From contig NZ_JACLZK010000002.1 in the NCBI RefSeq assembly GCF_014253065.1, positions 558,001 to 622,000 on the forward strand: a stretch of DNA of 64,000 nt. The letters run 5' to 3'. The position numbers and the translations under genes were made by a program. Shown piece by piece: positions 8,924 to 64,000 of this stretch. Source of the DNA: Campylobacter massiliensis. Its GTDB lineage: Bacteria; Campylobacterota; Campylobacteria; Campylobacterales; Campylobacteraceae. The notes under the pieces are model-generated. The model worked only from the letters and a program-made list of their open reading frames with translations, did no database searches and was not told the DNA's origin. How positions within the stretch are numbered: the first letter of the stretch is position 1; every line of letters begins with the position of its first letter.

Positions 8924-10165
8924 TTAAATTCTTTTAAATATCAGCGATGTATTTACTCCGCCGAAAGCAAAGTTGTTACTCATCACAAAGTCCGTATCTA
9001 TCGCGGTTTGCTCGGTCAGGTAAAAAAGAGGCGCGCAACTAGGATCAACGCGGGTCAAATTTATCGTCGGGAAAAATCTTTTCTCCCGCATCATCATCAC
9101 GCTAAATATCGCCTCCAAACCGCCGCAAGCTCCTAGCGTATGGCCGAGGTAGCTTTTTAGCGAGCTGATAGCGATCTTATCGCCAAAAAGCTCGTTTGTA
9201 GCGATACTCTCGGCGATATCGCCTTGTTTAGTCGCCGTGGCGTGAGCATTTACGTAGCCGATCTTTTCAGGCGTTAAATTTGCGTCTTTTAGCGCCAAAG
9301 CCATCGCGCCTTTCATCGTCGCGCTTTGCGGACGCGTTACGTGCGAGCCGTCGCAGTTTGAGCCAAAGCCTACGACCTCGGCGTAAATTTTAGCCCCACG
9401 CTTTACGGCACTCTCTTCGCTCTCTAGTAAAAGTATCCCAGCGCCCTCGCCTAGTACTAGCCCGTCGCGCTCCTCGTCAAACGGGGCAGGCGAAATCTCG
9501 GGCGAGCTATTTTTCACGCTAGTGGCGTAGAGCATGTCAAACACATATGCCTCGCTCGGGCACAGCTCCTCCGCGCCGCCTGCTAGCATCATATCAATTT
9601 TGCCACTTTTGATACTCTCGTAGGCGTATCCGATCGCATGCGAGCCGCTCGTACATGCCGAGGAGGTCGGGATGATGCGCCCTTTTAGCGAGTAAAAAAG
9701 CGCGATATTTGCCGCCGTGGTGTGAGGCATCATCTTGATGTAGGTGTTGGCGTTACACTCGTTTTCGCCGCGCTCTAGTAGCTTTGCCATTGCTAGTATC
9801 GACTCGGTGCTGCCCGTGGACGAACCGCACGCAACGCCTAGTCTACCGTCTTGCATGCTAGGATCGAGGCTCGCGGCGTCTAAATTTTCGCCCCGCATTA
9901 GCCCCGCGTCTCTTAGCGCCAGCCCCGCCGCCTCGACGCTATACATAGAAACAGTGCCTAGGCTTCTTAGCTGCTTGCGGTCCCACGAACTAGGGCACTC
10001 ATAGTCCTCTATGGGTGCAGCTAGGCGGGTATTTAGATCCTCATATCTATCCCACTGCCGCATATATTTCACGGCGTTTCGGCCGAGCTCAAATTTAGCC
10101 CTTATCTCCTCCCAGCTCTTGCCAAAGGCGCTCACCATGCCCATACCCGTTATAAAAACTCGCAT
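8924..10165 (-). CDS. Beta-ketoacyl-ACP synthase, FabF type (ApeR/ApeO-like)
   Basis: About 413 residues. The Cys-His-His triad is complete: Cys near residue 171 in TSSACTSGSHAIG, His in VNAHATATKQGD and His in SYLGHTLGACGG. A C-terminal NNFAFGGVNTSLIFKRI closes the thiolase fold. It catalyses decarboxylative condensation of malonyl-ACP with an acyl chain. Aryl-polyene clusters carry two such active ketosynthases; this is one, the gene at 11308 the other. The ATG at 10165 overlaps the last base of the upstream reductase stop (TGATG); a TTG two codons upstream is less likely. Confidence 0.92.
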   Translation of the reverse strand: MRVFITGMGMVSAFGKSWEEIRAKFELGRNAVKYMRQWDRYEDLNTRLAAPIEDYECPSSWDRKQLRSLGTVSMYSVEAAGLALRDAGLMRGENLDAASLDPSMQDGRLGVACGSSTGSTESILAMAKLLERGENECNANTYIKMMPHTTAANIALFYSLKGRIIPTSSACTSGSHAIGYAYESIKSGKIDMMLAGGAEELCPSEAYVFDMLYATSVKNSSPEISPAPFDEERDGLVLGEGAGILLLESEESAVKRGAKIYAEVVGFGSNCDGSHVTRPQSATMKGAMALALKDANLTPEKIGYVNAHATATKQGDIAESIATNELFGDKIAISSLKSYLGHTLGACGGLEAIFSVMMMREKRFFPTINLTRVDPSCAPLFYLTEQTAIDTDFVMSNNFAFGGVNTSLIFKRI

Positions 10166-10878
10166 CAGCAAAGCCCTCCGTTTACGCCGATAACCTGCCT
10201 CGTTATGTAGGCTGCGCCCTCGCTTAGCAAAAACTCGACCAAAGGCGCGACCTCGTCCGCCCTGCCCGCTCTTTTAGCTGGGATTGCCCTTAATATCTCC
10301 TCCATCGGCAAACCGCCGTCCGTCATATCCGTCTCGATGAGTCCAGGCGCGATACAGTTTACGGTGATATTTCGCGAGGCTAGCTCGGCGGCTAGGGATT
10401 TTGCCGCGCCGATGAGACCTGCCTTGCTAGCCGCGTAGTTACTCTGACCGCGGTTGCCTATGACGCCTGAAACCGAGCTCATCACGACGATACGAGCGGG
10501 CTTTTTAGCGCGGATCATAGGCATGAGAGCGGGCTTTAGGACGTTATAAAAGCCGTTTAAATTCGTATCCACGACGCCAAACCAATCCTCGTCCTCGATC
10601 GCAACGAACGTATTATCGCGCGTGATGCCAGCGTTTAGCACGACGGCGTAATAAGCGCCGTTAGCCTCTATGTCGGCTTCGATCGCCGCCCTTGCCGCCT
10701 GCGTATCTGCTACGTCAAATTTTAAAGCGCTCAAATTTAACTCGTTTTGTAAATTTAATAATTGCTCGCTCGCGCTTTTACCGTGCAGCACGACCTCGTA
10801 TCCCGCCGCCGCCAGCCGCCTAGCCACCGCTTCTCCGATGCCGCGACTCGAGCCCGTTATCAGCACTCTTTTACTCAT
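10165..10878 (-). CDS. 3-oxoacyl-ACP reductase, FabG/SDR family (ApeQ-like)
   Basis: 237 residues of a classical short-chain dehydrogenase. It has a GSSRGIGEAVARRL NADP-binding motif at residues 8-21, NAGITRDN, a catalytic Ser in VVMSSVSGVIG, YAASKAG with the Tyr-x3-Lys pair, and ITVNCIAPGLIETDM. It reduces the beta-keto group after each condensation, before dehydration by the hotdog enzyme encoded just upstream. Overlaps are 8 bases upstream and 1 base downstream. Confidence 0.92.
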   Translation of the reverse strand: MSKRVLITGSSRGIGEAVARRLAAAGYEVVLHGKSASEQLLNLQNELNLSALKFDVADTQAARAAIEADIEANGAYYAVVLNAGITRDNTFVAIEDEDWFGVVDTNLNGFYNVLKPALMPMIRAKKPARIVVMSSVSGVIGNRGQSNYAASKAGLIGAAKSLAAELASRNITVNCIAPGLIETDMTDGGLPMEEILRAIPAKRAGRADEVAPLVEFLLSEGAAYITRQVIGVNGGLC

Positions 10879-33690: not shown

Positions 33691-36600
33691 TTATGCAAGA
33701 ACTATAGTATCAGCACCAGCTGCACCACCTAAGGCTTGAACGCCGGTAGTACCTGCTAGCTGTACAACGGTATCCACAGCACCGTCTTGGAACAAGAACG
33801 TGCTATCTGCAGTACCGTCACCGTCCTGATCGTAAGCAAAAGCAACCGTCTTAGTAGTACCATTCAACTCTTTAGCAAAATAATCTAATACATCGTTAAG
33901 ATTCTTAGAATTTACCACCGTAGCTTGAGTATGAGCGGCATCGCTATAGAATGTAGCTACACCATTTGTAATTCCATAAGCTTGGATGGCTTTACCCTGA
34001 CCTGAGGCAATATCTTGAGCGCCAGCAGCTTTGTTATCAGCTACTAAAGTGCTTGAAAGCTCAAGCTTATCGCTACCGGCGGCAGCTGTAGAGAAACCAT
34101 ATATAACATCATGAGATCCTTTAACTGACTCTCCATCAGCTATTTTGATAGTATCTGTTGCTCCGTCGTCTTTTACTTTGCCACCCTCATAAATATTGTT
34201 TGTAGCAAATACGTCAGCACCTTTACCGCCTTCAAACACGTCAGCGCCTTTGGTACCTACCGCAGCATCGTTTCCATTTCCGCCATTAAACGTAAGCTTA
34301 GTAACATCAGGGGCGGTTATAACTACGTCGTTTCCATCTCCGCCATTAACTTTTGCATGGTGAGCGCCTTTTGCTATCCAGAAGTTATCCTTGTCATTGC
34401 CAGTTCCCTTTTTAAGCTTCTCTTCATCCGTAGCACCAGTACCGTCAACAGTATAATCCCATGTATCGTTATTTAGATTATAGTTTTCTGCAAATCTACC
34501 ATTTAAAGTAGTAGCACTACCTTGGATTTGGCCACCCTGCCACTGAACTTTTAGAGTAGATCCCTCTCCAGAAGCTATAACCTGGTTTACATAATTATTT
34601 GTACCATCTGTAGCTTGAGCTAGAGTAATATCAGTATTCTCAGCTACATCTCCTTTTACGGCAATCTGAACGTTAGCTACACCAGCTAATTTAGTAACTG
34701 TAGTAGCCGCGTTTACTGTATTTATAGATGTACCGAAGTTATCTTTATAAGAATCATAACCTCTACCAAATGCAACAGTATCGTTACCATCTCTAGCAGT
34801 TACAGCATCGTCGCCATCGCCTACGTCTATAACGTTGTCACCCCTGTGTGCGTAAACTTTATCATTTGCGCTTCCAGTAGTAATAAAATCAGACTGAGCA
34901 GAACCGGTAATCTCATTTTTGCCGTCACCAGCTGCTATCTTAATGCCTTTACCAGCTGAACCTAAGGCGTTAAATTTACTACCGCCATCACTAATCTTAA
35001 CTGTAGCACCGTCACCCAATCCTACGACGCGTGCAATAAATTCACCCATTACATTTGAAGCATCAACAAGACTTATACTGTTATTTAGGTCATTTGCAGT
35101 TACAGTATTGAGATTAAGATCTCTTTTTGCGTTTAGAGTCAAGGTCTCCAGATTTTTGCCTGCGATATTTTTAATCTCTGTAGTAACAGTTGCAGCATCC
35201 TTTTTTATTCTCTCATCATTTACATTAACGGTGATATTTTTAGTACCGTCGACAGTGATTTGCTCTACAGTGTAGCTCTTAGCACCTTTGTCAATATCAT
35301 CAAGTTTTGAGTCGATATTAACATTTACGCTCTCAGCTTTATTGTCTAAAAGTTTTACTCCATTAAAGTGCTGATCGGTTTCTTCATCAACGTAAGGCTC
35401 TGCAGGATTCGCACTTGGTCCTTTTTGATCAACCTTGTCAAGGTCACCTTTAAAGTTAAGCTCAGTTATGTTTGTAGAGCTCTTGACTGTAATAACTTTA
35501 GTGGCATCTACTGTTTTACCCATACCTTTGACACCATATCCCAAACTACTTACTTTGTCAGTTTGAGCAACAGCCTCTTGAGACATGACAACTAGTTTGC
35601 TTACATCTTTACTTACAATATCAAGAGTGACATTTTTGCTAGCAGCGATATGGATGCCTTCTATACCAGCTAGATTAAGAGCGCCATCTTTACTAAAGAT
35701 AGCTCTGACAGTATCATTATCTCCGCCGGCATCGGTTATCTTATCTTTACCATCAAGACCATCAAGCTCTGCAAATGTCAAGACATCATTACCTGTTCCA
35801 AGTTTAATATCTTGACCAGGATTTGTATCTTGATCTTTTACTGTTAGTCTTAGATCACTCTTTTGAGCGCTTGCATCCACAGTCTTAGCTACAACTTCGC
35901 CATCAACAGCATAGTATAAATCTTTTGTGCCACCTGTAAGAGTTATCGTTCCAGTGTGATCATTGGCATTTGTAAATTTAACACTATTGCTCTCAGAGTC
36001 GCTATCATTGATTTTTAAGTTTTCAACGCCTTTTGCGCCAATCTCATACTCGAAAGTATTGTCTTTATTGTTTGCATCTACGACTTTAAAGTTTAGAGTA
36101 TCATCTTTGCCTTTAGCGTCTTTTAAATTTGCAACGATTTTTGTATCAAAGTTGCCGTCACTATCAGAATCGCCAACAGCATGCTCTACAACTATCTCGC
36201 CTTCTTTTGCAAATTTTTCAGAAATATCATTAAGAGTAAATGTGCGAGCGGTGCCGATAGTTTCGTTTCGAACTACTACGTTCTTAAGATTTTCATCAAA
36301 TCTGTCAAAATCCATCTCTAGATCACTTTTTTGAGCTCTCATCTCTAGAGTTTCGATATTTGTTATAGTAGCCTTACCTTCAGTTTCATATTCGCCTATT
36401 GAGCCGCCCACCATAACTAATTTATCTTGACCTTCACCGCCATTAATAGAAATTCTATCTTCAACACCATTTCGTAGATAGAAAGTATCGCCCAGTTTGC
36501 TACCGATAATATCGGTATATTGTTTTTTACCAGAATCAAATGGATCAAATGCATTTTTAACAATATCTGATATGTCAAGAGTTAGCTTGCCATTATAGTT

Positions 36601-37902
36601 CGAAGCATCAAGTTTAGTAAAGCCTCTTGTTCCAACCGCTTGGATACCACCATCTTTAACTTCATAAAATTGAGGATTTGCACCAGCGTTTAGCTCAACA
36701 TCAGCTATTTCTAAGCTACCGCTACCTTTTATAGTAAGCTCTCTTAGCTGATTTGCCTCAAATTTATCCATAGAAACATCTTGTTTGGAAACTAAATCTA
36801 ATTGCTCGTATCCTTCAGTATTAGCGTCACTAGTAATTGAAAGAGATTTTGCGTCTACTTTTTCTAAGAACACACTAGATTTGTCTTCAAAACCCGCTAG
36901 AACGCCTTTTTTGTGTTCAAATTTGACATTTATGTCTTTTTTTGCAACATTAGCTAATCTCATACCGTCAAGCTTTTGACCTATGCTCTGAACAGTAAAT
37001 TTATTTGCAGCCTCTTGAGTAACTCTGTCTATATTGACTTTTTCTACATCATTAGAATCGCGCAAATCAAGAGTATTAACAGTTCCAGTTACTTGAATGT
37101 TAATGTTTTGAACATTATTAAGTATAGGCGTTCTTGAACCAGGATCAGCCTCGTCGCCATTTATATGTCCAAATTCAACATTTAATGTATTGTCCGCTCT
37201 TGAAGCATCGCCAGTTAGCCTATCACTACTTTGAAGCGTCATAATCCTATCAGTGCCACCAGGGTTATGCTTCATGCCCGCATTAAATACATTTGCAGTC
37301 AATGTATCTGTATCTGTAGTTAGCTCGGCAGCTGTTCCCGGATTTACAGGAGCAGAATTCCAATCTACTGAACTATCAGTTGAGATATTAACCAAACTAT
37401 CAACAAACGCTTTTGCATCAGTTAAACTAGATGGGTTTGAAGTTACTTTTGTAAGAGCTTCTTTGAAAGGTGCAAGATCTTTAACTTTTAGATCTTTTCC
37501 TTCAACCTTTGTAGCAGTATAGTCAGATAGAGCTACTTTATTGTTAAAATAATCTTGTGCGGCACCTTTATTTGCAGGATCTTGTGCAGCTTTGATAAGC
37601 TCAGAAACTACTAAACCACGTGAGTTACCAGCCTTTAGGGCATCAACCCAAAATTTGATACCCGCAGGATCTTCTACTTGTGTCTTGTTAAGCGTATTTT
37701 TATAGATATGCTTAATAAAAGCTTCGTCGCTAGTCAAAGCAGAACCGAAGTACTCTTGAGCAGCAGTTGTAGCTAGCATCGCATTAGCGCCGGCAGCTAC
37801 GTCTGAAACCGCACTTTGCCAGTATTTATTTCCAGCACCTTCAGATACTCTACCAAAAAGAGTAACGTAAAGCTGAGAAACTTGTGTTTGTGTTAAAGCC
37901 AT
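33691..37902 (-). CDS. S-layer protein with RTX-type calcium-binding repeats, type I secretion substrate
   Basis: 1403 residues, no N-terminal signal peptide and no cysteine that I can see, as typical of Campylobacter S-layer proteins. Residues ~1-170 contain a DUF4214-type module (LYVTLFGRVSEGAGNKYWQSA, DPAGIKFWVDALKAGNSRG). The middle consists of Asp/Asn-rich beta segments of repeated type (KNITVNVNDERIKKD, KNVTLDIVSKDVSKL). Glycine/aspartate repeats of the nonapeptide kind occur near 510-520, 690-720, 1000-1045 and 1160-1230 (GGDGNDVV, GGNGNDAAVGTKGADVFEGG). The last ~50 residues end AGADTIVLA, an uncleaved C-terminal export signal. Calcium would drive folding outside the cell. Strong AAGGAG site six bases before ATG. 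The divergent sapC-D-E-F-like genes are its likely exporter. Confidence 0.93.
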   Translation of the reverse strand: MALTQTQVSQLYVTLFGRVSEGAGNKYWQSAVSDVAAGANAMLATTAAQEYFGSALTSDEAFIKHIYKNTLNKTQVEDPAGIKFWVDALKAGNSRGLVVSELIKAAQDPANKGAAQDYFNNKVALSDYTATKVEGKDLKVKDLAPFKEALTKVTSNPSSLTDAKAFVDSLVNISTDSSVDWNSAPVNPGTAAELTTDTDTLTANVFNAGMKHNPGGTDRIMTLQSSDRLTGDASRADNTLNVEFGHINGDEADPGSRTPILNNVQNINIQVTGTVNTLDLRDSNDVEKVNIDRVTQEAANKFTVQSIGQKLDGMRLANVAKKDINVKFEHKKGVLAGFEDKSSVFLEKVDAKSLSITSDANTEGYEQLDLVSKQDVSMDKFEANQLRELTIKGSGSLEIADVELNAGANPQFYEVKDGGIQAVGTRGFTKLDASNYNGKLTLDISDIVKNAFDPFDSGKKQYTDIIGSKLGDTFYLRNGVEDRISINGGEGQDKLVMVGGSIGEYETEGKATITNIETLEMRAQKSDLEMDFDRFDENLKNVVVRNETIGTARTFTLNDISEKFAKEGEIVVEHAVGDSDSDGNFDTKIVANLKDAKGKDDTLNFKVVDANNKDNTFEYEIGAKGVENLKINDSDSESNSVKFTNANDHTGTITLTGGTKDLYYAVDGEVVAKTVDASAQKSDLRLTVKDQDTNPGQDIKLGTGNDVLTFAELDGLDGKDKITDAGGDNDTVRAIFSKDGALNLAGIEGIHIAASKNVTLDIVSKDVSKLVVMSQEAVAQTDKVSSLGYGVKGMGKTVDATKVITVKSSTNITELNFKGDLDKVDQKGPSANPAEPYVDEETDQHFNGVKLLDNKAESVNVNIDSKLDDIDKGAKSYTVEQITVDGTKNITVNVNDERIKKDAATVTTEIKNIAGKNLETLTLNAKRDLNLNTVTANDLNNSISLVDASNVMGEFIARVVGLGDGATVKISDGGSKFNALGSAGKGIKIAAGDGKNEITGSAQSDFITTGSANDKVYAHRGDNVIDVGDGDDAVTARDGNDTVAFGRGYDSYKDNFGTSINTVNAATTVTKLAGVANVQIAVKGDVAENTDITLAQATDGTNNYVNQVIASGEGSTLKVQWQGGQIQGSATTLNGRFAENYNLNNDTWDYTVDGTGATDEEKLKKGTGNDKDNFWIAKGAHHAKVNGGDGNDVVITAPDVTKLTFNGGNGNDAAVGTKGADVFEGGKGADVFATNNIYEGGKVKDDGATDTIKIADGESVKGSHDVIYGFSTAAAGSDKLELSSTLVADNKAAGAQDIASGQGKAIQAYGITNGVATFYSDAAHTQATVVNSKNLNDVLDYFAKELNGTTKTVAFAYDQDGDGTADSTFLFQDGAVDTVVQLAGTTGVQALGGAAGADTIVLA

Positions 37903-37931
37903 TAAGGACTCCTTAAAATGAAATTTGGTAG

Positions 37932-38035
37932 TTGCAAAGACCTACCATAGTAGAATCAACCGAGATAAGGTAACCGCAGATGAGCCTACTAAGGTCTGCT
38001 CTGTGTCCTACCTACTATCGATAGTACTTTTGCAA
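37932..38035 (-). promoter_or_regulatory. Structured 5' leader of the S-layer mRNA (predicted three-way junction)
   Basis: In the minus-strand transcript, CTTTTGCAA-region bases at 38027-38035 pair with 37932-37939 and close the structure. Inside are a 12-base palindrome hairpin ACTATCGATAGT (38014-38025) and a second stem pairing 37986-37997 (AGACCTTAGTAG) with 37938-37943 plus 37948-37953, with a 4-base bulge. Such leaders can stabilise very abundant messages or expose the ribosome-binding site. The fold is drawn by eye. Confidence 0.55.
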
Positions 38036-38228: not shown

Positions 38229-39323
38229 GTGGGTAGAAAAGCAAGAGAGATAATCGGCGGAACGGTTTTAGTAAAACAAAACGGCGACTTTTGCAAAAAT
38301 GAGAGCGAAGTAGAAATATACAAGACCAAGCTTACGGATACGGCAAATAGATATGGAGCTCAAATTTACGGCTACTACATAGGCAAGACGAGCGTGATGC
38401 TGTATCTGCAAAGCGAAGATATAGCTAAATTTATGCAGATATTAAATAGTTCCTTTTCAAGGGAAAGAAATAAAAAAAGGGGAGACGAACCGATCGGCAA
38501 GACGGAAAGATACGAAGCAACTATAGTCGGAGATAATGAGAAGGACGACGTGGCTAAATTTATAAAGCAAAACGGCGGAACGGTATTTGTCAAGACTAGC
38601 AAAAATATCAGTATAGACAAAAAACATAATATAAATAATATAAAAAAAAGGAAAAACATGAACATAACGGCCCTGCATTCAGATGAACACAGAGACCTAA
38701 GATATGTGGGTGGCGCCCTGCCCGATACCCCAGTAGCAAAGATCACGATATCTGAGATGAAAAAATGCGCTGAAAATTTCTGCATAGTCTTTACCAACGA
38801 GATAGTGCCGACGATGCTGGTGCTGCTAGGACGAGACGGAAACGTAATGATAGATGAAAATTTTAACGGCTACGTGCCTGCAAGCCTAAAAAACTATCCG
38901 TTTTTACTCGGCAACGCAGACGGCAAAAGAGTACTCTGCGTCGATATGGACTCCGAGCAGATACAAAAAGGCGGTGAGAAAGGCGAGATATTATTTGACA
39001 ATGAGGGCAACAAAAGCGATTTCTTGGACAAAGTAGTATCGGCTTTAAAAAACTACGATGCGGATTTTAGAAAAACAGAAGTAATGATGGAAGAGATAAA
39101 AAAAGCAGGAATTTTAGTCGATAAAGAGTTAAATTTAAAGGTAGGCGAGGAAAATTACGTGCTAATAAAAGGCTTTTCGATCGTGAGCAAAAGCAAGCTA
39201 AACGAACTAGACGACAAAACTTTGGCAATGTTCGTTAGAAACGGATATATGAATCTAATCAACATACACCTAAGCAGTTTGAGCAACTTCCAAACTCTAG
39301 CCTCAAGGATACTTTCAAAATGA
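38229..39323 (+). CDS. sapC: SapC-family protein with an N-terminal degenerate Y1 (REP-type) transposase-like domain
   Basis: 364 residues from a GTG start with GGAAG upstream. Residues ~144-364 match the SapC family: HRDLRYVGG, FCIVFTNEIVPTMLVLLGRDGN, YVPASLKNYPFLLGNADGKRV, LCVDMDS and a C-terminal IKGFSIVSKSKLNEL with LINIHLSSLSN. SapC precedes the type I genes in C. fetus; its role is unclear. Residues 1-120 look like a REP-associated tyrosine transposase: GRKAREIIGGTVLVKQNG, YGAQIYGYYIGKTSVMLYLQ and MQILNSSFSRERN, but the expected N-H-x-H-L-L is K-T-S-V-M-L, so the catalytic His pair is lost. An internal ATG at 38658, after AAAAGGAAAAAC, could start SapC alone. Overlaps the next gene as ATGA. 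Confidence 0.7.
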   Translation: MGRKAREIIGGTVLVKQNGDFCKNESEVEIYKTKLTDTANRYGAQIYGYYIGKTSVMLYLQSEDIAKFMQILNSSFSRERNKKRGDEPIGKTERYEATIVGDNEKDDVAKFIKQNGGTVFVKTSKNISIDKKHNINNIKKRKNMNITALHSDEHRDLRYVGGALPDTPVAKITISEMKKCAENFCIVFTNEIVPTMLVLLGRDGNVMIDENFNGYVPASLKNYPFLLGNADGKRVLCVDMDSEQIQKGGEKGEILFDNEGNKSDFLDKVVSALKNYDADFRKTEVMMEEIKKAGILVDKELNLKVGEENYVLIKGFSIVSKSKLNELDDKTLAMFVRNGYMNLINIHLSSLSNFQTLASRILSK

Positions 39324-41047
39324 GCACGTCCAAAAAAGAAAACGAACTAAAAAGCATACTCAGAAAATCCAAAAAGTGCTTGATATATGCGGGTATCTTT
39401 AGTGCTTTCGTAAATTTACTGATGCTGACGCCTCCTTTATACATGCTTCAGCTTTACGGCCGCGTGGTAACATCAAGAAGCTTGGATACGCTCACTATGC
39501 TTACTTTAATAGTAGTGTTTCTATTTGTAACAATGGGGCTTTTTGAGATACTTAGATCGCGCGTACTGATAATATTTGCCAATCAGATGGATCAAAATTT
39601 ATCAGGCAGGGTTTACGACGCGATATTTAAACTAGCTGCAAGAAATCCGTCAAAAACTACTTCGCAGGCGATGAGTGACATAAATACGCTCAAGCAATAT
39701 CTAAGCGGAAACGGAGTGTTTGCATTTTTAGATGCTCCGTGGCTACCGATATATATCGCGATACTGTTTTTATTTCACCCGTACTACGGCTGGTTTAGCG
39801 TATTTGCCGCGATTTTTCTTTTTATCCTTGCGCTTTTAAACGAAAACGCAACAAAAGACGGGCTTAAAAACTCAAATGACAGCTACAAAAAAGAGATGCG
39901 TTTTGTGGATTCAAATTTGAGAAACTCCGAAGTCATACAAGCTATGGGAATGAATGCAAATTTGAGAAAAATTTGGGAGAAAAAGCATGATGAGTTTTTG
40001 AATTCACATTCGGACGCAAGCTCAAAAGCCGGAGTCTACGCAAACATAAGTAAAACGGCACGCGTCACCTTTCAGTCCTTGATGCTGGGCCTTGGTGCGT
40101 ACCTCGTCGTAAAAATGGAGCTAACTCCAGGAATGATGATTGCGGGATCAATTATAATGGGCAGAGCTCTGGCTCCGCTTGATATCTTGATAGCCAGCTG
40201 GAAAAACTACAAGGGTGCGAAAGAGAGCTATCAAAGACTAGATAGATTTTTAGACGAATTCCCTGCTGAAACCGACAGAATAAAACTTCCAGATCCTATA
40301 GGCCAGATAGAGTGTCAGAGCGTATCCTTAGTGCCGCCTAACGCAAAAACCTTATCGCTAATGGACGTAACGCTAAGCCTAAACGCCGGAGATATGTGTG
40401 CGGTGATAGGACCGAGTGCGGCAGGCAAAAGCTCGTTTGCCAGAGCAGTGCTGGGTGTATGGCCTTTATTTAAGGGAACAGTCAGAGTAGACGGTGCGGA
40501 TATAAACCAATACGACAGCAACCACCTTGGAGAATTTGTAGGGTACTTGCCTCAAGATGTGGAGCTTTTCGAGGGAACAGTAGCTGAAAATATAGCAAGG
40601 TTTGGCGAACTAGACTCCGAGGAAATAATAAAAGCGGCAAAACTAGCTAACGTGCATGAGATGATATTAAATTTACCGGAAGGCTACGATACCAAAATAG
40701 GCATGGGCGGCTCAAGCCTAAGCGGAGGACAAAGACAAAGGATAGCTTTGGCTAGAGCATTTTATAAATCGCCCAAGATAATCGTACTGGATGAGCCAAA
40801 CGCAAGCCTCGACGAAGCCGGAGAAAGAGCGCTGCATCAAGCTCTGCTAAATATGAAAGGCAAAGCTACTATCATATTGATAACTCATAAGCTAAACATA
40901 CTAGGAATAGTCGACAAAATAGCGGTTCTAACCGCCGGCAGACTTATATATTTCGGTCTAAGAGACGCTGTACTACACGAGCTTACCAAAAATCAAAACC
41001 AGGCTGTGCAGCAACAGGCTAAGCAAAAGATAACAGAGGAAAAATAA
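39320..41047 (+). CDS. sapD: Type I secretion ABC transporter (SapD/PrtD-like) for S-layer export
   Basis: 575 residues. An N-terminal permease of six membrane helices (residues ~20-300) includes PPLYMLQLYGRVVTSRSLDTL, typical of PrtD/HasD exporters, and there is no peptidase domain. The C-terminal ATPase has Walker A GPSAAGKSS near 364-372, signature LSGGQRQRIALARAF and Walker B IIVLDEPNASLDEAG. It energises one-step export of proteins with C-terminal signals, here most likely the S-layer protein encoded divergently. ATGA overlap upstream; the next gene starts at its stop codon. Confidence 0.93.
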   Translation: MSTSKKENELKSILRKSKKCLIYAGIFSAFVNLLMLTPPLYMLQLYGRVVTSRSLDTLTMLTLIVVFLFVTMGLFEILRSRVLIIFANQMDQNLSGRVYDAIFKLAARNPSKTTSQAMSDINTLKQYLSGNGVFAFLDAPWLPIYIAILFLFHPYYGWFSVFAAIFLFILALLNENATKDGLKNSNDSYKKEMRFVDSNLRNSEVIQAMGMNANLRKIWEKKHDEFLNSHSDASSKAGVYANISKTARVTFQSLMLGLGAYLVVKMELTPGMMIAGSIIMGRALAPLDILIASWKNYKGAKESYQRLDRFLDEFPAETDRIKLPDPIGQIECQSVSLVPPNAKTLSLMDVTLSLNAGDMCAVIGPSAAGKSSFARAVLGVWPLFKGTVRVDGADINQYDSNHLGEFVGYLPQDVELFEGTVAENIARFGELDSEEIIKAAKLANVHEMILNLPEGYDTKIGMGGSSLSGGQRQRIALARAFYKSPKIIVLDEPNASLDEAGERALHQALLNMKGKATIILITHKLNILGIVDKIAVLTAGRLIYFGLRDAVLHELTKNQNQAVQQQAKQKITEEK

Positions 41048-42330
41048 TGATACTGTCTGACGAAAGAGGAACGATAAGATTTGGCCTACTAACTATTTTG
41101 ATATTAGTTGGAGTGTTTGGCGGCTGGGCAGCTTTTGCCCCACTTAAAGGCGGTGCCGTAGCGGTCGGAAAAGTAAGCGTAATAAACGACAAGAAAGTCG
41201 TACAGCACCTAGAAGGCGGCGTAGTAGACGAAATTTACGTAAAAGACGGCAATAAGGTAAAAGAAGGGGACGTACTTTTAAGAATAAGAAACTCTAGACT
41301 CCAAGCAGACCTTAACGCTTCCGCAACAGAATATCTACAAAACGGTGTCTTGGAAGCCAGGCTTATAGCGCAGAGGGATAGCGAAAAACAGATAAATTTC
41401 AGCGACGAGCTAAAGAAACTAGACGGCTTTAAAGAAGCTTCGGAAGCGCAAATAAGTATCTTTAATGAGCAAAGAAAAATGCTAAGCGATGAAAAAGAGA
41501 TACTAAATCAGCGCATCTCTCAGCTCTATAAGCAAATAGATGGACTAAACGCCATAATATCCTCAAGAAAACTAAGAGCAGCATCGCTAGACGAAGAGAT
41601 AAAAGAGTGGGATAGGCTATATAAAGAACAACTAAGCGACAAGATAAGGCTTAGAGACTCAAAGCGAGAAAAGATAGCTGTTGACGGCGAGATAGCCTCA
41701 AGCGCGGCAGAAATCGCTAGACTAAACGTCCAAATAACCGAGACGAAATCTCAAATAATTTTAAGGGAAAGAACCTTTAAAGAAGAAGTCCTAAAGCAAC
41801 TAGAAAACGTAACAAAATCTATAAACGCTCTAAGATCAAGATATATAGCCCTAAACGATCAACTGACTAGAACCGAGATAAGGGCTCCGATAAGCGGAAC
41901 AGTTGTAGGTATGACCGTGCATACTATTAGTGGCGTCGTGCGCCCGGGCGAAGTAATAATGAACATAGTTCCGGATACGAGCGAATATATCGTCGATGCA
42001 AAGATGAACTTGACCGATATAGACAAAGTCACTATAGGACTACTAGCCGACGTGCGCTTTAGCGCATTTGAGCTTCAGCAAGCCCACGTAGTAGAGGGCG
42101 AAGTCATATATATATCCGCCGATAGCTTACAGGATAATAACGGACATCAGTTCTATGAGATAAAGGTTAAACTCACCGAAAACGGCATAAAGGAACTAGA
42201 GAATAATAAATTTTTCTTGCTTCCAGGTATGCCTGCAGAGGTAATGGTGCAAACGACCGATAGAACAGTTTTAAGCTATATCTTAAATCCGTTTACGAAT
42301 ATGTTTAAAAGGGCATTTAATGAAGATTAA
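41047..42330 (+). CDS. sapE: Type I secretion membrane-fusion protein (SapE/HlyD family)
   Basis: 427 residues. One N-terminal membrane helix (FGLLTILILVGVFGGWAAFAPL), then a biotinyl-lipoyl half (VVQHLEGGVVDEIYVKDGNKVKEGD), a long coiled coil (~90-270), the second lipoyl half (TEIRAPISGTVVGMTVHTISGVVRPGE) and a beta-barrel with PGMPAEVMVQT at the end, the HlyD hallmark. It bridges the inner-membrane ATPase and the TolC-type channel. The start overlaps the ABC stop by one base (TAATG), and its end overlaps the TolC-like start by 11 bases. Confidence 0.93.
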   Translation: MILSDERGTIRFGLLTILILVGVFGGWAAFAPLKGGAVAVGKVSVINDKKVVQHLEGGVVDEIYVKDGNKVKEGDVLLRIRNSRLQADLNASATEYLQNGVLEARLIAQRDSEKQINFSDELKKLDGFKEASEAQISIFNEQRKMLSDEKEILNQRISQLYKQIDGLNAIISSRKLRAASLDEEIKEWDRLYKEQLSDKIRLRDSKREKIAVDGEIASSAAEIARLNVQITETKSQIILRERTFKEEVLKQLENVTKSINALRSRYIALNDQLTRTEIRAPISGTVVGMTVHTISGVVRPGEVIMNIVPDTSEYIVDAKMNLTDIDKVTIGLLADVRFSAFELQQAHVVEGEVIYISADSLQDNNGHQFYEIKVKLTENGIKELENNKFFLLPGMPAEVMVQTTDRTVLSYILNPFTNMFKRAFNED

Positions 42331-43603
42331 AATTTTATCCCTACTTGCCGCGCCGATACTTTTGTCGGCGCAGTCCGCAAGCTTATCTCAAGCCTATAAT
42401 ATGGCTCTAGGCAACGACGAAGAGTACAAATATTATATGTACAACAGTCTAGCCGGAGAGCAAAGGTACAATCAAGCCTTATCTCAGTTGTTGCCTACCA
42501 TAAACGGCGACCTATCCTATCATGGCGACAAATATAAAAGATTCAACAAGAACAGCAATGAAAGCTACACGAGTTACGGCGTGACGCTAAGGCAGCCGAT
42601 ATTTCAACCATCCTTGTACTACCAAAGGCAACAAGAAGAACTAAGGATGCAAGGAAGTCATATCGAGCTAGAACATAGCAGACAAGAGCTTGCCAAAAAA
42701 GTAGCCAAGGCGTATTTTGAACTAGCCTATGCTAATGCAAATTTAAAACTAGCACTAAGCTATCAAGATGCAAATAGGGCTAAATTTGAGCAGATGGAGC
42801 GCTCGCTCTCACTAGGACTCACCAATAAAATGGACATGCTCGAATCAAAAGTGAGATACGATGAGTCGATGCTAGGCGTAAGCAAAGCACAAAGAAGCAT
42901 AGACATAGCCAAGATGTCGCTTTTTAAACTAGTCGGGCAGGACATCGATACTATGGAGTATTTTGAAAATATAAATATTGATTTTTTCAAAAATCTTGAT
43001 CTTAGAAAATACAGCGACATAGAACAAAATTTAGATTACAGACAAAGCGCGCTACTGACGCAAATAGCCGAAAAAGAGCACACCAAGCGTAAAAGCGAAC
43101 ATCTGCCGACCATCGACTTTTCTATAGGCTACTCAAACAACGATTACAAGGATGATAGAGCTTTTGGCGATAAAAATCATAGGGTTGAAACCAATATCCG
43201 CCTAAATATGCCGATATTTTCAAGCTGGTACACAAGCTATAGGGTTGAAGAAGGCATGTTTTTAAGGCAAGCTAGCATCTCTAGACAAAACGATACTAGA
43301 AAAAATGTCGATATCGCACAAAGACAAGCCACCATCAACCTCCAAAACTATATCCAAGAGTACGACATAAACGTAAGGTCGCTTGAGCACGCTAATGTAT
43401 ACGAACGCTCAATAGAGCGCGGATACGAAGAGGGACTAAAGGATCTAGTCGATCTACTAGACGCTAAAGCTAGAGTCCACAAGATAAAAAATGAACTGAT
43501 AGCTTCTGCTCGAAACGTGGTTTTGGCCTATCTTGAGCTTGAAAGCCTAATAAATGACATAAACGAACAAAGCATGAGCAAGCTTGAGAGCGCGTTTAAC
43601 TAA
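42320..43603 (+). CDS. sapF: TolC-family outer membrane channel (SapF-like) of the S-layer exporter
   Basis: 427 residues with a signal peptide (MKIKILSLLAAPILLSAQS). The internal duplication of TolC proteins is visible: SLSQAYNMALGNDEEYKYY in the first half and DYRQSALLTQIAEKEHTKRKSEHLPTIDFSIGY in the second, with long helices between. It forms the trimeric outer-membrane exit duct. The gene ends inside the 3' end of the opposite glycosyltransferase gene (8-base tail-to-tail overlap), leaving no room for a terminator between the export operon and the O-polysaccharide operon. Confidence 0.92.
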   Translation: MKIKILSLLAAPILLSAQSASLSQAYNMALGNDEEYKYYMYNSLAGEQRYNQALSQLLPTINGDLSYHGDKYKRFNKNSNESYTSYGVTLRQPIFQPSLYYQRQQEELRMQGSHIELEHSRQELAKKVAKAYFELAYANANLKLALSYQDANRAKFEQMERSLSLGLTNKMDMLESKVRYDESMLGVSKAQRSIDIAKMSLFKLVGQDIDTMEYFENINIDFFKNLDLRKYSDIEQNLDYRQSALLTQIAEKEHTKRKSEHLPTIDFSIGYSNNDYKDDRAFGDKNHRVETNIRLNMPIFSSWYTSYRVEEGMFLRQASISRQNDTRKNVDIAQRQATINLQNYIQEYDINVRSLEHANVYERSIERGYEEGLKDLVDLLDAKARVHKIKNELIASARNVVLAYLELESLINDINEQSMSKLESAFN

Positions 43604-60330: not shown

Positions 60331-60359
60331 AAAAGCCCGCCATCAAAAGACGACGGGCT
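60331..60359 (-). terminator. Terminator of the large S-layer-like gene
   Basis: On the minus strand AGCCCGTCGTC...GATGGCGGGCT forms a GC-rich stem followed by TTTTTAAA. It starts eight bases after the stop codon at 60367. Confidence 0.9.
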
Positions 60360-60366
60360 AAAATGC

Positions 60367-63300
60367 TTAATGACCAGCAGCTATATTGGCGTCAGTTAAA
60401 TTAACACCACCAACCAAAGTGCCTATCAAATGCACCTCAGTATCCTCTATTGTACCAGATGAGTTTTCATCGTATACAGATAAAAGCTTGGTCACATCAT
60501 TTCCTTTAACAGCAACTACAGACTTGGTATCAGCAACAACATTAGTTTTAAATGTTTTTCCAGAAGCCGCAAATAGCTCGCCAAAATGAACAGGATTGCT
60601 TCCGACTTTGCCATAAAATTTATCAGCTATATTACCATTAACGGTTGTAGTATAAATTTTACCGTTTTCTATGGATTGCTCCGCATCCTCCGCAACCGGG
60701 GTTGTGCTACTGTCAGTACCACCCCAACCTTTAAAGTATAGCTTATCTTGAGTAGCATCGAAGCCATTTATCTCCAAGGTACCCACTTTGTTGCCAAGCC
60801 CAATAGTGTCTGCTTTACCGTTTGCAGCACTATCATCAGCATTTTTAAGATTGATGGTAAGCTTTTTGGTGTTATAGTCCAGCTTGTGTAGCTCTATATC
60901 ACCGCCATCGGTACTCTTTAGAGTAAGGTCGTTAATAAGCTTCATAGTATCGTCGCTACCATTCTTTACGGCATTATATAAAGCAGTAAACCCTTTATGG
61001 CTCATAGTATCACTAGTTGTTTTTATCTCAACTTTTTCTATACTATCAAAAGAAACCTTTCCAGTATTGAGTGTTTCTACTCCAATCTTGTTTGAGGCAC
61101 CTACATTGGCAGTAGTTGTTTGATCATCCTCGACTGTTATAGTATCTATTGCATCTTTAGTTCCTGCTAATTTTACGCCGTTTGCATCAACAGTTTTAGT
61201 TATACCGCCTTCGAGTTTTTCTACAGATATAGTCTGAGCATTGTCTGCAGTCTTGTTTGTAAGGGTATATTTATCTGCTGCGACATCGCTAACGACATAT
61301 TTATTATTGCCCACTACAGCTTCGGTCTCTACATATCCAGCTGCTCCTTTTAGGAGATTTTTGCCTTCAATGACTTTGTAGTGAATAACCGCATCGTATG
61401 CAGGCTTGGTGGCGTTTGTGAAATTAAATTCTACATCGCCGATTTTTGCTTTAGATATTGCAACATTTGAGATATCAAAAGCGTTGTTAAATAATACAGT
61501 ATTACTGTCTAACGTTAGCTCATTATGAGCATCTACCTGTATCTTTTCTACCGTACCGCTGCCATCTGCTTTTAGCAACAGACGCCCACCATCAGTGTTA
61601 ATCGTTTTGGATATCTTTGCTAGCGCCAGCTTTGAATCAGACTCATTGGCTTTACTCCAAGCGTCACTAAAGCTCGCAGAATCTTTTAAAGTATAATGAT
61701 TGCCATCTTTTCTAACCGAAATAACTCTTTCGTTGTCATCAAGAGAAAACATATAATTATCGCCAGGAAGTATTTGCACTATTGAGACTTTATCTCCACC
61801 TTTATTTATAACCCAGAAATCACCTTGCTTACCAAGGAGCAGCTTGTCGTTTACTACAGGAACTTTTATCTGATCTAGATTGTGAACAGAAATATTTTTC
61901 TCTATATCCTTAATAATAGGACCTTGTTCAAATTCATATTCATTGGCTCCTCCAACATCGATTTTGGTGATTTTATAATCCTCAGAGCCTGCGACTTTAA
62001 CTATCGTTGCCTTATAAGCATCGGAAGCAGGCGCGGCAGAATTTAGCTTAAAGCCACTACCATCAACTACGGCATCTTTGATATTGTTGTAACTATCGTT
62101 TACGTCGGCTTTTAGCGCAAATGCATTGGTGCCGTCTTTATGTGCAAACAGTACCTTGCCATCTTTGGATACAAAACTAAACTCTTTTGTTCCGTTTTTA
62201 GCTACAAAGCCATCTTCTCCTGTCTTTACGATGATTTTATCGTTAAATTTAGCATCGGAGGTGCTAGGCAGGGCGGTAGTCTGAGCGTCTATCTCATATA
62301 GTTTATTGTCAGTTTTGCTAACTACCAAAGTACTACCTTCGGCTAATGTAGCATCGGTAATATCGACAGTATATTTACCGTCTGCGCTCTTGTATACCGA
62401 GCCATCTTTCGTTAAAACCACAGAGTTGAGTTTATCCGCTACTGCGGCTACATTACCAGCATTCGCCTCATTGAGTTTTTGGGTAGCTTCTATTACTTTG
62501 GCTTCTGCGTCAGCTTTTGCGGCCGTGGCTTTATTTAGAGTCTCTTGAAGTTCGGCATTATCAGGATCCTGGTTTTTATTGTTCTGTGCGGCCTTGACCT
62601 CAGCATCCCTTAGATCGACTATCGCTTTTGCTGCGTCAAGATCTTTTTGAGCTACATCCTTATTAGCTTTAGCTATACCTGCTTTATTTGCCTTTTGAGA
62701 ACCTAAAGCGGTATTATACAGACCATCTTTAGCATTTTTGTTGCCATTGGCGGTAGTTAGCTCACGACCAGCATCGGTTTTTAGAGCGTCATATTTGGCA
62801 CTATCAAAATCATCATCTAGTTTGCCTATGCCTTGTTTTGCCATTAGTTTAGCGATTTGTTCGGATATCGCCTTTTTTTGGCCATCGGTATATTTTGGAT
62901 CGCTAGTAATAGCAGATTCTATTTTTTTCAAGCTATCATTGGTTCCTGCTGCAAAAGCACCCTCAAAAGCGTCCTTAATAGCTTTAGCCGCTACAGCGTT
63001 ATCGTCAGCTTTTGATTTCTCATCAATCGCTTTTTGAAGATCTTTATCAAGTTCTTGTTCAGGTATTCTAGCTTCTGCGTACACTTTTTTAGCCTCAGCT
63101 AGTTTTTCTTGCTCATCGGCTACTTTTTTTATCTCGTCAGCTACTTTAGCTTCACCCGTTACTTCAACAAGCTTTTTTTCGTCCAATATTTTGGCAAAAG
63201 TTTTTACTATCTCTTTTGCTTTCTCTAAAGCTTCTTTTTGCGCCTCTGTAGTAGATGGATCGTCTATCTTGCTTTGGATATAATTTAAAGCGTCTTGTTT

Positions 63301-64000
63301 TATTCCGCCATGGCTATCAACGCTGTCTTTAACCGCATCTTTAACGTAATTTGCCACAAGCTTATCTGTTTGCGCTTGTTTTGCTTCTTCCTTTGCAGTC
63401 TCGAGATTTTTCTGGGCTTGTTTTACAGCCTCTTCTCTTGCTTTTTGCTCTTGCTGCTCCGGAGTAAGAGGAGTAGAACCGCTACCTGAGCCACCGCCTG
63501 AGCTTCCGCCGCCACCAGGAGTTGGCGTAGGTGTTGGAGTTGGGGTTGGAGTATTTGCGTAAATATCAGTAGTAGCAGTCGTTGCATCAAGAGCTTTTTC
63601 AGCCGCATTAGCATCGACAGATGGGAATACAGATTTTGTGATCTGAGCTAGTTCTTTGTTGCTTAGTACGGTTAAATTTGCTTTCATAGCTTCTTGTTTA
63701 ATAACTTGAGCTATCTGAGTAGGCGTGCTAGTATCTTTTATATTTTTTAGTACTGCAGCAAAGCCGGCTATCTTTTCAATTATAGTTCCGTTGCTTGGAA
63801 CGTTTTCGATAGCTTTATAAGCTATCTCAGCTGCTTTTACTTTATTTAGGAATAAATTTTGAGCTTTAAGCTCTTCAGGTTTAGTGTATTTATTATTCGT
63901 AGAAGCATCTAACATCTGAGATACGATAAAAGCTTTTGACTTGCCATCTTTAAGATGATCTATCCAAAATTTAGAGCCTTCCGGATCTTGGGCGATTGTT
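60367..64000 (-). CDS. Large S-layer-like secreted protein (3' part; 5' end outside the window)
   Basis: About 1210 residues visible. The first part (DPEGSKFWIDHLKDGKSKAF, with NLFLNKV further on) is the same DUF4214-type module as residues ~75-125 of the S-layer protein (DPAGIKFWVDALKAGNSRG, YFNNKV), and the frame is open to the window edge, so the gene continues. Then come a Thr-Pro repeat and glycine/serine hinge (PTPTPTPTPTPGGGGSSGGG), about 330 residues of Ala/Lys/Glu-rich coiled coil (EAKQAQTDKLVANYVKDAVK), and beta-rich repeats to the end (DSIEKVEIKTTSDTM, GTLEINGFDATQDKLYFKG). The C-terminus (NSSGTIEDTEVHLIGTLVGG) parallels that of the S-layer protein. I see no cysteine. Export by the same type I system is inferred. 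Confidence 0.85.
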   Translation of the reverse strand, partial: TIAQDPEGSKFWIDHLKDGKSKAFIVSQMLDASTNNKYTKPEELKAQNLFLNKVKAAEIAYKAIENVPSNGTIIEKIAGFAAVLKNIKDTSTPTQIAQVIKQEAMKANLTVLSNKELAQITKSVFPSVDANAAEKALDATTATTDIYANTPTPTPTPTPTPGGGGSSGGGSGSGSTPLTPEQQEQKAREEAVKQAQKNLETAKEEAKQAQTDKLVANYVKDAVKDSVDSHGGIKQDALNYIQSKIDDPSTTEAQKEALEKAKEIVKTFAKILDEKKLVEVTGEAKVADEIKKVADEQEKLAEAKKVYAEARIPEQELDKDLQKAIDEKSKADDNAVAAKAIKDAFEGAFAAGTNDSLKKIESAITSDPKYTDGQKKAISEQIAKLMAKQGIGKLDDDFDSAKYDALKTDAGRELTTANGNKNAKDGLYNTALGSQKANKAGIAKANKDVAQKDLDAAKAIVDLRDAEVKAAQNNKNQDPDNAELQETLNKATAAKADAEAKVIEATQKLNEANAGNVAAVADKLNSVVLTKDGSVYKSADGKYTVDITDATLAEGSTLVVSKTDNKLYEIDAQTTALPSTSDAKFNDKIIVKTGEDGFVAKNGTKEFSFVSKDGKVLFAHKDGTNAFALKADVNDSYNNIKDAVVDGSGFKLNSAAPASDAYKATIVKVAGSEDYKITKIDVGGANEYEFEQGPIIKDIEKNISVHNLDQIKVPVVNDKLLLGKQGDFWVINKGGDKVSIVQILPGDNYMFSLDDNERVISVRKDGNHYTLKDSASFSDAWSKANESDSKLALAKISKTINTDGGRLLLKADGSGTVEKIQVDAHNELTLDSNTVLFNNAFDISNVAISKAKIGDVEFNFTNATKPAYDAVIHYKVIEGKNLLKGAAGYVETEAVVGNNKYVVSDVAADKYTLTNKTADNAQTISVEKLEGGITKTVDANGVKLAGTKDAIDTITVEDDQTTTANVGASNKIGVETLNTGKVSFDSIEKVEIKTTSDTMSHKGFTALYNAVKNGSDDTMKLINDLTLKSTDGGDIELHKLDYNTKKLTINLKNADDSAANGKADTIGLGNKVGTLEINGFDATQDKLYFKGWGGTDSSTTPVAEDAEQSIENGKIYTTTVNGNIADKFYGKVGSNPVHFGELFAASGKTFKTNVVADTKSVVAVKGNDVTKLLSVYDENSSGTIEDTEVHLIGTLVGGVNLTDANIAAGH

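Follow-up and report, generated by a model that had tools for sequence, protein, structure and literature searches.

A putative rod-bearing surface protein with a SapA-type N-terminal module and no RTX repeats in Campylobacter massiliensis

Variation of the Campylobacter S-layer is a classic case of interchangeable coat proteins carried on one anchor. In the stretch of DNA analysed here from C. massiliensis, a Campylobacter of the oral type (64,000 nucleotides, henceforth the window), an open frame on the minus strand at positions 60367-63999, continuing past the window edge, raises the question of whether that anchor may also carry proteins of another build. A first-pass annotation had described its product as a second S-layer-like protein, related at both ends to the S-layer protein encoded in the same window. 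We favour, with a probability of roughly 0.68, the reading that the product of this gene, gene A, would be a type I-secreted, LPS-anchored and fast-diverging surface display protein of the Sap/Csx kind.

Gene A and its neighbours

Gene A is found whole in the genome (L009:6368-10228:-, genome C2:618367-622227; 2.25 Mb in three contigs), where it encodes 1286 aa from an ATG located 227 nt outside the window (genome C2:622227). The features of the window are collected in Table 1. Upstream of the gene there is a promoter-like site, TTGTAA-17-TATAAT, with TGC ahead of the second hexamer, and the hairpin with a T tail at its 3' end agrees with the strong terminator of its own that had been attributed to it. 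Protein A has no cysteine and an acidic pI of 5.2, as is usual among type I substrates. No GGxGxD-type RTX motif was found in it, versus four in the S-layer protein, nor any Pfam RTX match, and a search of NCBIfam gave no family for A, its paralogue B or the S-layer protein.

Table 1. Features of the window considered in this work (positions within the 64,000 nucleotides)
Feature	Position	Strand	Remarks
RTX S-layer protein gene (S)	33691..37902	-	1403 aa; C. rectus crs orthologue; related N-module
sapC	38229..39323	+	PF07277, E 9e-45
sapD	39320..41047	+	PrtD-type exporter ATPase; TIGR01842, 734 bits (cut-off 510); presumed exporter of A
sapE	41047..42330	+	HlyD-type membrane fusion protein
sapF	42320..43603	+	outer membrane efflux protein
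Terminator-like hairpin	60334..60359	-	directly 3' of gene A; 11-bp stem, 7 G-C pairs, T tail
Gene A	60367..64000	-	residues 77-1286 of 1286, plus stop
C-terminal part of A	60370..61047	-	residues 1061-1286; common to N-module proteins of 669, 777, 862 and 1728 aa
EDTEVHLIG motif in C-terminal part	60421-60447	-	
Beta part of A	61048..62427	-	residues 601-1060; fastest diverging
Helical rod of A	62428..63462	-	residues 256-600; missing from paralogue B
Pro-Thr stalk and Gly/Ser hinge of A	63463..63561	-	residues 223-255; predicted disordered
N-module of A, part in window	63562..63999	-	residues 77-222; helical, DUF4214-type, homologous to the SapA N-terminus

Paralogue B (L009:10411-13155:-, genome C2:622410-625154; 914 aa) lies just beyond the window, directly upstream of gene A on the same strand and 182 nt apart. 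It is composed of the same parts minus the stalk and the helical rod, with identities to A of 65% in the N-module, 35% in the beta part and 46% in the C-terminal part, and has two cysteines, whereas A and the S-layer protein have none. Divergent from B is gene C (L009:13301-15697:+), which encodes a 798-aa repeat protein without N-module and contains a perfect 18-nt tandem repeat (5.8 copies, L009:13718-13821, genome C2:625717-625820) coding for a Pro-Val-Pro-Thr stalk; the number of repeats likely differs among strains. In all, the genome holds six N-module genes, so that describing A as the second such protein was too low a count.

The shared anchor module and the presumed SapDEF exporter

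The first ~220 aa of protein A match the N-terminal module of the S-layer protein of the window and the N-terminus of C. fetus SapA. Two DUF4214 matches were found in this module (residues 1-222), the family (PF13946) being detected with E 2e-9 in A and 1.5e-9 in the S-layer protein, and direct BLASTP of the two N-modules gave 34.7% over 173 aa (E 3.5e-24). Both also align with C. fetus Sap in an alignment of 18 proteins; the genome treated as C. fetus (G085) was taken as such because sapC, D, E and F sit there between Sap genes with identical N-termini. The common N-terminal module proposed in the first-pass annotation is therefore supported by this alignment and by the significant similarity of the two modules (E 4e-24, rounded), whose absence would have refuted it, and by anchor homology A belongs to the SapA-type N-module surface proteins. 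The SapA N-terminus binds LPS according to Dworkin (1995), as cited in PMC8559796, and the homologous helical module of A would likewise keep the protein on LPS. An N-terminal LPS anchor combined with type I export is also known for RsaA of Caulobacter crescentus (PMC8559796, PMC3034196), which A may resemble in its way of working, although A has no RTX repeats; when the N-module profile was compared with solved structures no RsaA chain was retrieved, the single match (E 0.07) being unrelated.

With respect to export, a SapDEF-type exporter, as in the Sap/Csx family, is present in the same genome as A, in which no exporter ATPase other than SapD scores above the PrtD-type cut-off. Among 48 genomes of the genus, N-module proteins were found in six of the seven with a SapD-type exporter and in none of the 41 without it (Fisher p 6e-7, a value to be used as a guide only, given that the 48 genomes are related). 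The seventh genome, a fragmented assembly of about 80 contigs, gave no N-module match. These data support indirectly the earlier proposal that A is exported by SapD-SapE-SapF, which would recognize an uncleaved C-terminal signal. Another type I ATPase (C1:556846) exists in the genome and could in principle export a surface-anchored A, but this second transporter occurs in all 48 genomes, 42 of them without N-module protein, and thus does not track the N-module family, which makes it a very unlikely candidate.

Other observations were made on sap loci. The leader of the S-layer gene (window 37900-38012, ~110 nt) is nearly identical to that of crs in the C. rectus-like genome described below and contains none of the -10-like boxes that were searched for, so that the untranslated leader may be both long and conserved. 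Residues 27-115 of SapC showed a very weak similarity to IS200-type transposases (Y1_Tnp, E 0.22), absent in two other SapC proteins. From its gene content, the plasmid NZ_CP012551 of Campylobacter sp. RM16187 (G045 C3; L074, L063; 36,884 bp), with a SapD-type exporter and a 1469-aa N-module protein, is a putative plasmid-borne sap-like system; a plasmid search returned DUF4214 proteins, none of them full length.

Rod, beta part and C-terminal end

Between the anchor and the C-terminal end, the RTX repeats of the S-layer protein are indeed replaced in A by a Pro-Thr stalk (residues 226-237) and a Gly/Ser hinge (238-251), as had been noted, but the single long coiled coil predicted to follow them was not recovered. 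The AlphaFold model shows several long helices (256-305, 350-386, 390-427, 476-553 and 558-600; pLDDT mostly 80-95) and no continuous rod, followed by an all-beta region from residue 601 to 1286; the first 25 residues of the N-module are poorly modelled. The models were built on 6 and 10 sequences, reached pTM values of 0.51 and 0.57 and do not fix the arrangement of the domains. In the rod, short helical tips interrupt a number of long helices, which are probably packed as antiparallel hairpins. Ala, Lys, Asp and Glu abound in these helices, which have a hydrophobic period of 3.5 residues (p 0.007 among ten periods tried). A long helix followed by two short ones and another long one is found twice, in stretches that align with each other (HHalign probability 61%), a hint that the rod may derive from duplicated hairpins. 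Sequence searches against solved structures gave weak coiled-coil matches for the rod and nothing for the beta part. In Foldseek the beta part matched Rhs/teneurin repeats and single-layer OspA sheets with TM-scores below 0.3, and is taken here as probable repeated beta hairpins, without membership in either group.

The Foldseek matches of the rod model were to generic long helices (best E 0.026) and included alpha-type pore-forming proteins (E 0.04-0.09). These could point to A as a pore-former or other effector that acts on other cells, held by the anchor until its release. Such a role seems highly improbable to us, as the matches are not significant and appear among flagellar and structural coiled coils, and neither a hydrophobic membrane segment nor a sequence family was found for A; being weak and generic, they were not counted as evidence for a toxin.

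The layout of the protein also bears on whether A might instead be an alternative lattice-forming subunit of the csx type, replacing the RTX S-layer protein or mixing with it. The same anchor, a similar size and the presence of multiple copies beside csx genes in the C. rectus-like genome are compatible with this, as is the existence of several S-layer RTX proteins in C. rectus (PMC3034196). However, A lacks RTX repeats, and the stalk and helical rod that separate its anchor from the beta part are unfit for a flat lattice, both of which weaken this explanation, and a complete RTX S-layer gene adjoins sapCDEF; we therefore consider it unlikely, if less so than the effector or the second transporter. 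On the favoured reading of A as a surface display protein, the disordered stalk and the rod would hold the beta part beyond the RTX S-layer or over it, within reach of other bacteria or host surfaces that it may touch. As B has the anchor and the beta part without stalk and rod, the two proteins could present related heads at two heights. A function of A as an adhesin or structural partner, as first suggested, is plausible.

The similar C-terminal ends claimed for A and the S-layer protein could not be substantiated. HHalign of the last 235 aa gave a probability of 4% for a common domain, which was therefore rejected, and BLASTP of the two C-termini returned no match; the last ~170 aa of A are instead common to N-module proteins of 669, 777, 862 and 1728 aa (probabilities of 98-99.7%, versus the 4% of the S-layer protein). 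What remains is a short motif, [DE]x0-3[IV]x[LI]xG, which 24 of 29 N-module proteins have within 70 residues of their C-terminus, compared with 4.9% of internal windows, a contrast that is inflated because the motif was formulated on these same sequences after looking at them. Given that the C-terminal domains differ, a common export signal would rest on this after-the-fact motif.

Divergence and probable exchange among copies

The gene family was also studied in the genome of a close relative (G037), called C. rectus-like solely because the lengths of three of its genes equal exactly those of CsxA (1123), CsxB (1238) and Crs (1361) (PMC3034196). It has four rod-type copies, three intact and one split into two frames (L046:6823-9297 and 9480-10661). 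In a further genome (G038), a frame of 1486 codons is stopped by an in-frame TAG after the N-module and a Pro-rich stalk (L056:6134-6877:+, 247 aa). Copy r1 of the C. rectus-like genome and gene A are positional orthologues, sharing flanking genes for a yadS-type membrane protein, acpS, fliL and others with 88-95% protein identity, while the two proteins are only 46% identical overall, with 80% identity for the anchor as against 50% for the C-terminal part, 46% for the rod and 36% for the beta part. Divergence has thus been far more rapid in the displayed parts than in the anchor or the neighbour genes.

Recombination of the sap type between A and the S-layer gene had been raised as a possibility. 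Comparison of the two genes at the DNA level gave no match, for which reason they were rejected as partners, and the N-modules of A and B agree at 31% of fourfold sites, so that the copies in this genome are too diverged for recent exchange. Near-identical 5' ends among copies, absent here, were found for the same family in the C. rectus-like genome. There, copies r1, r2 and r4 are 93-100% identical in the first ~1050 nt; beyond this point the identity of r1 to the others falls to 56-87%, and that of r2 to r4 switches between 68 and 100%. This step is also seen at fourfold sites (89-94% in codons 1-340, and 65-78% thereafter for the r1 pairs), so selection at the protein level fails as its cause, and exchange of a 5' cassette, which would leave a near-identical 5' kilobase with divergent remainders, appears to explain it best. 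The resulting mosaic resembles that of the sap genes of C. fetus and looks recent. The csx family shows the same kind of step, the first 175 codons being 97-99% identical among CsxA, CsxB and another two genes.

The two families differ in where the shared segment starts. In csx copies it begins near the ribosome-binding site, for which reason they look like cassettes in need of a promoter, whereas in rod-type copies it reaches up to the promoter-like site or beyond it, so that these could be expressed side by side. The promoter-like site of gene A is kept in three of the four rod-type copies, and a TATAAT found 36-47 nt upstream of every one of them would speak against silent copies under one shared promoter.

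Compared with C. fetus SapA/SapB, A has a homologous N-module and a linked SapCDEF exporter, and its family occurs in the C. rectus-like genome as several copies that are conserved at the 5' end and divergent over the rest; it differs in its stalk, helical rod and C-terminal domain, in the promoter-like site of each rod-type copy and in the absence of recent exchange in this genome. With Crs, CsxA and CsxB it shares the N-module and the genomes in which they occur, and the csx genes show the same identity step, but these proteins have RTX repeats and no RTX nonapeptide was found in A, whose C-terminal region is not homologous to that of the S-layer protein of the window. A bolder possibility, which we hold only tentatively, is that SapDEF exports a second class of proteins on the LPS anchor, expressed independently and represented by A, in which rods with heads would pass through the S-layer from genes with their own promoters, the anchor-plus-stalk cassette being exchanged and the heads reshuffled. 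Several heads would then be displayed together, unlike the switching of C. fetus, which shows one surface protein at a time.

The observation on gene A thus holds in large part, and the complete gene with its surroundings adds somewhat to what could be seen at the edge of the window; the protein is a variant within a known type of surface protein. The same exporter probably serves both the S-layer coat and a rod-bearing protein without RTX repeats, and as the same anchor bears a protein outside the RTX coat type, it would serve as a general plug by which proteins are displayed at the surface. The far faster divergence of the displayed parts relative to the neighbour genes makes this family a good candidate for contact with hosts or partner bacteria, as well as for variation among strains.
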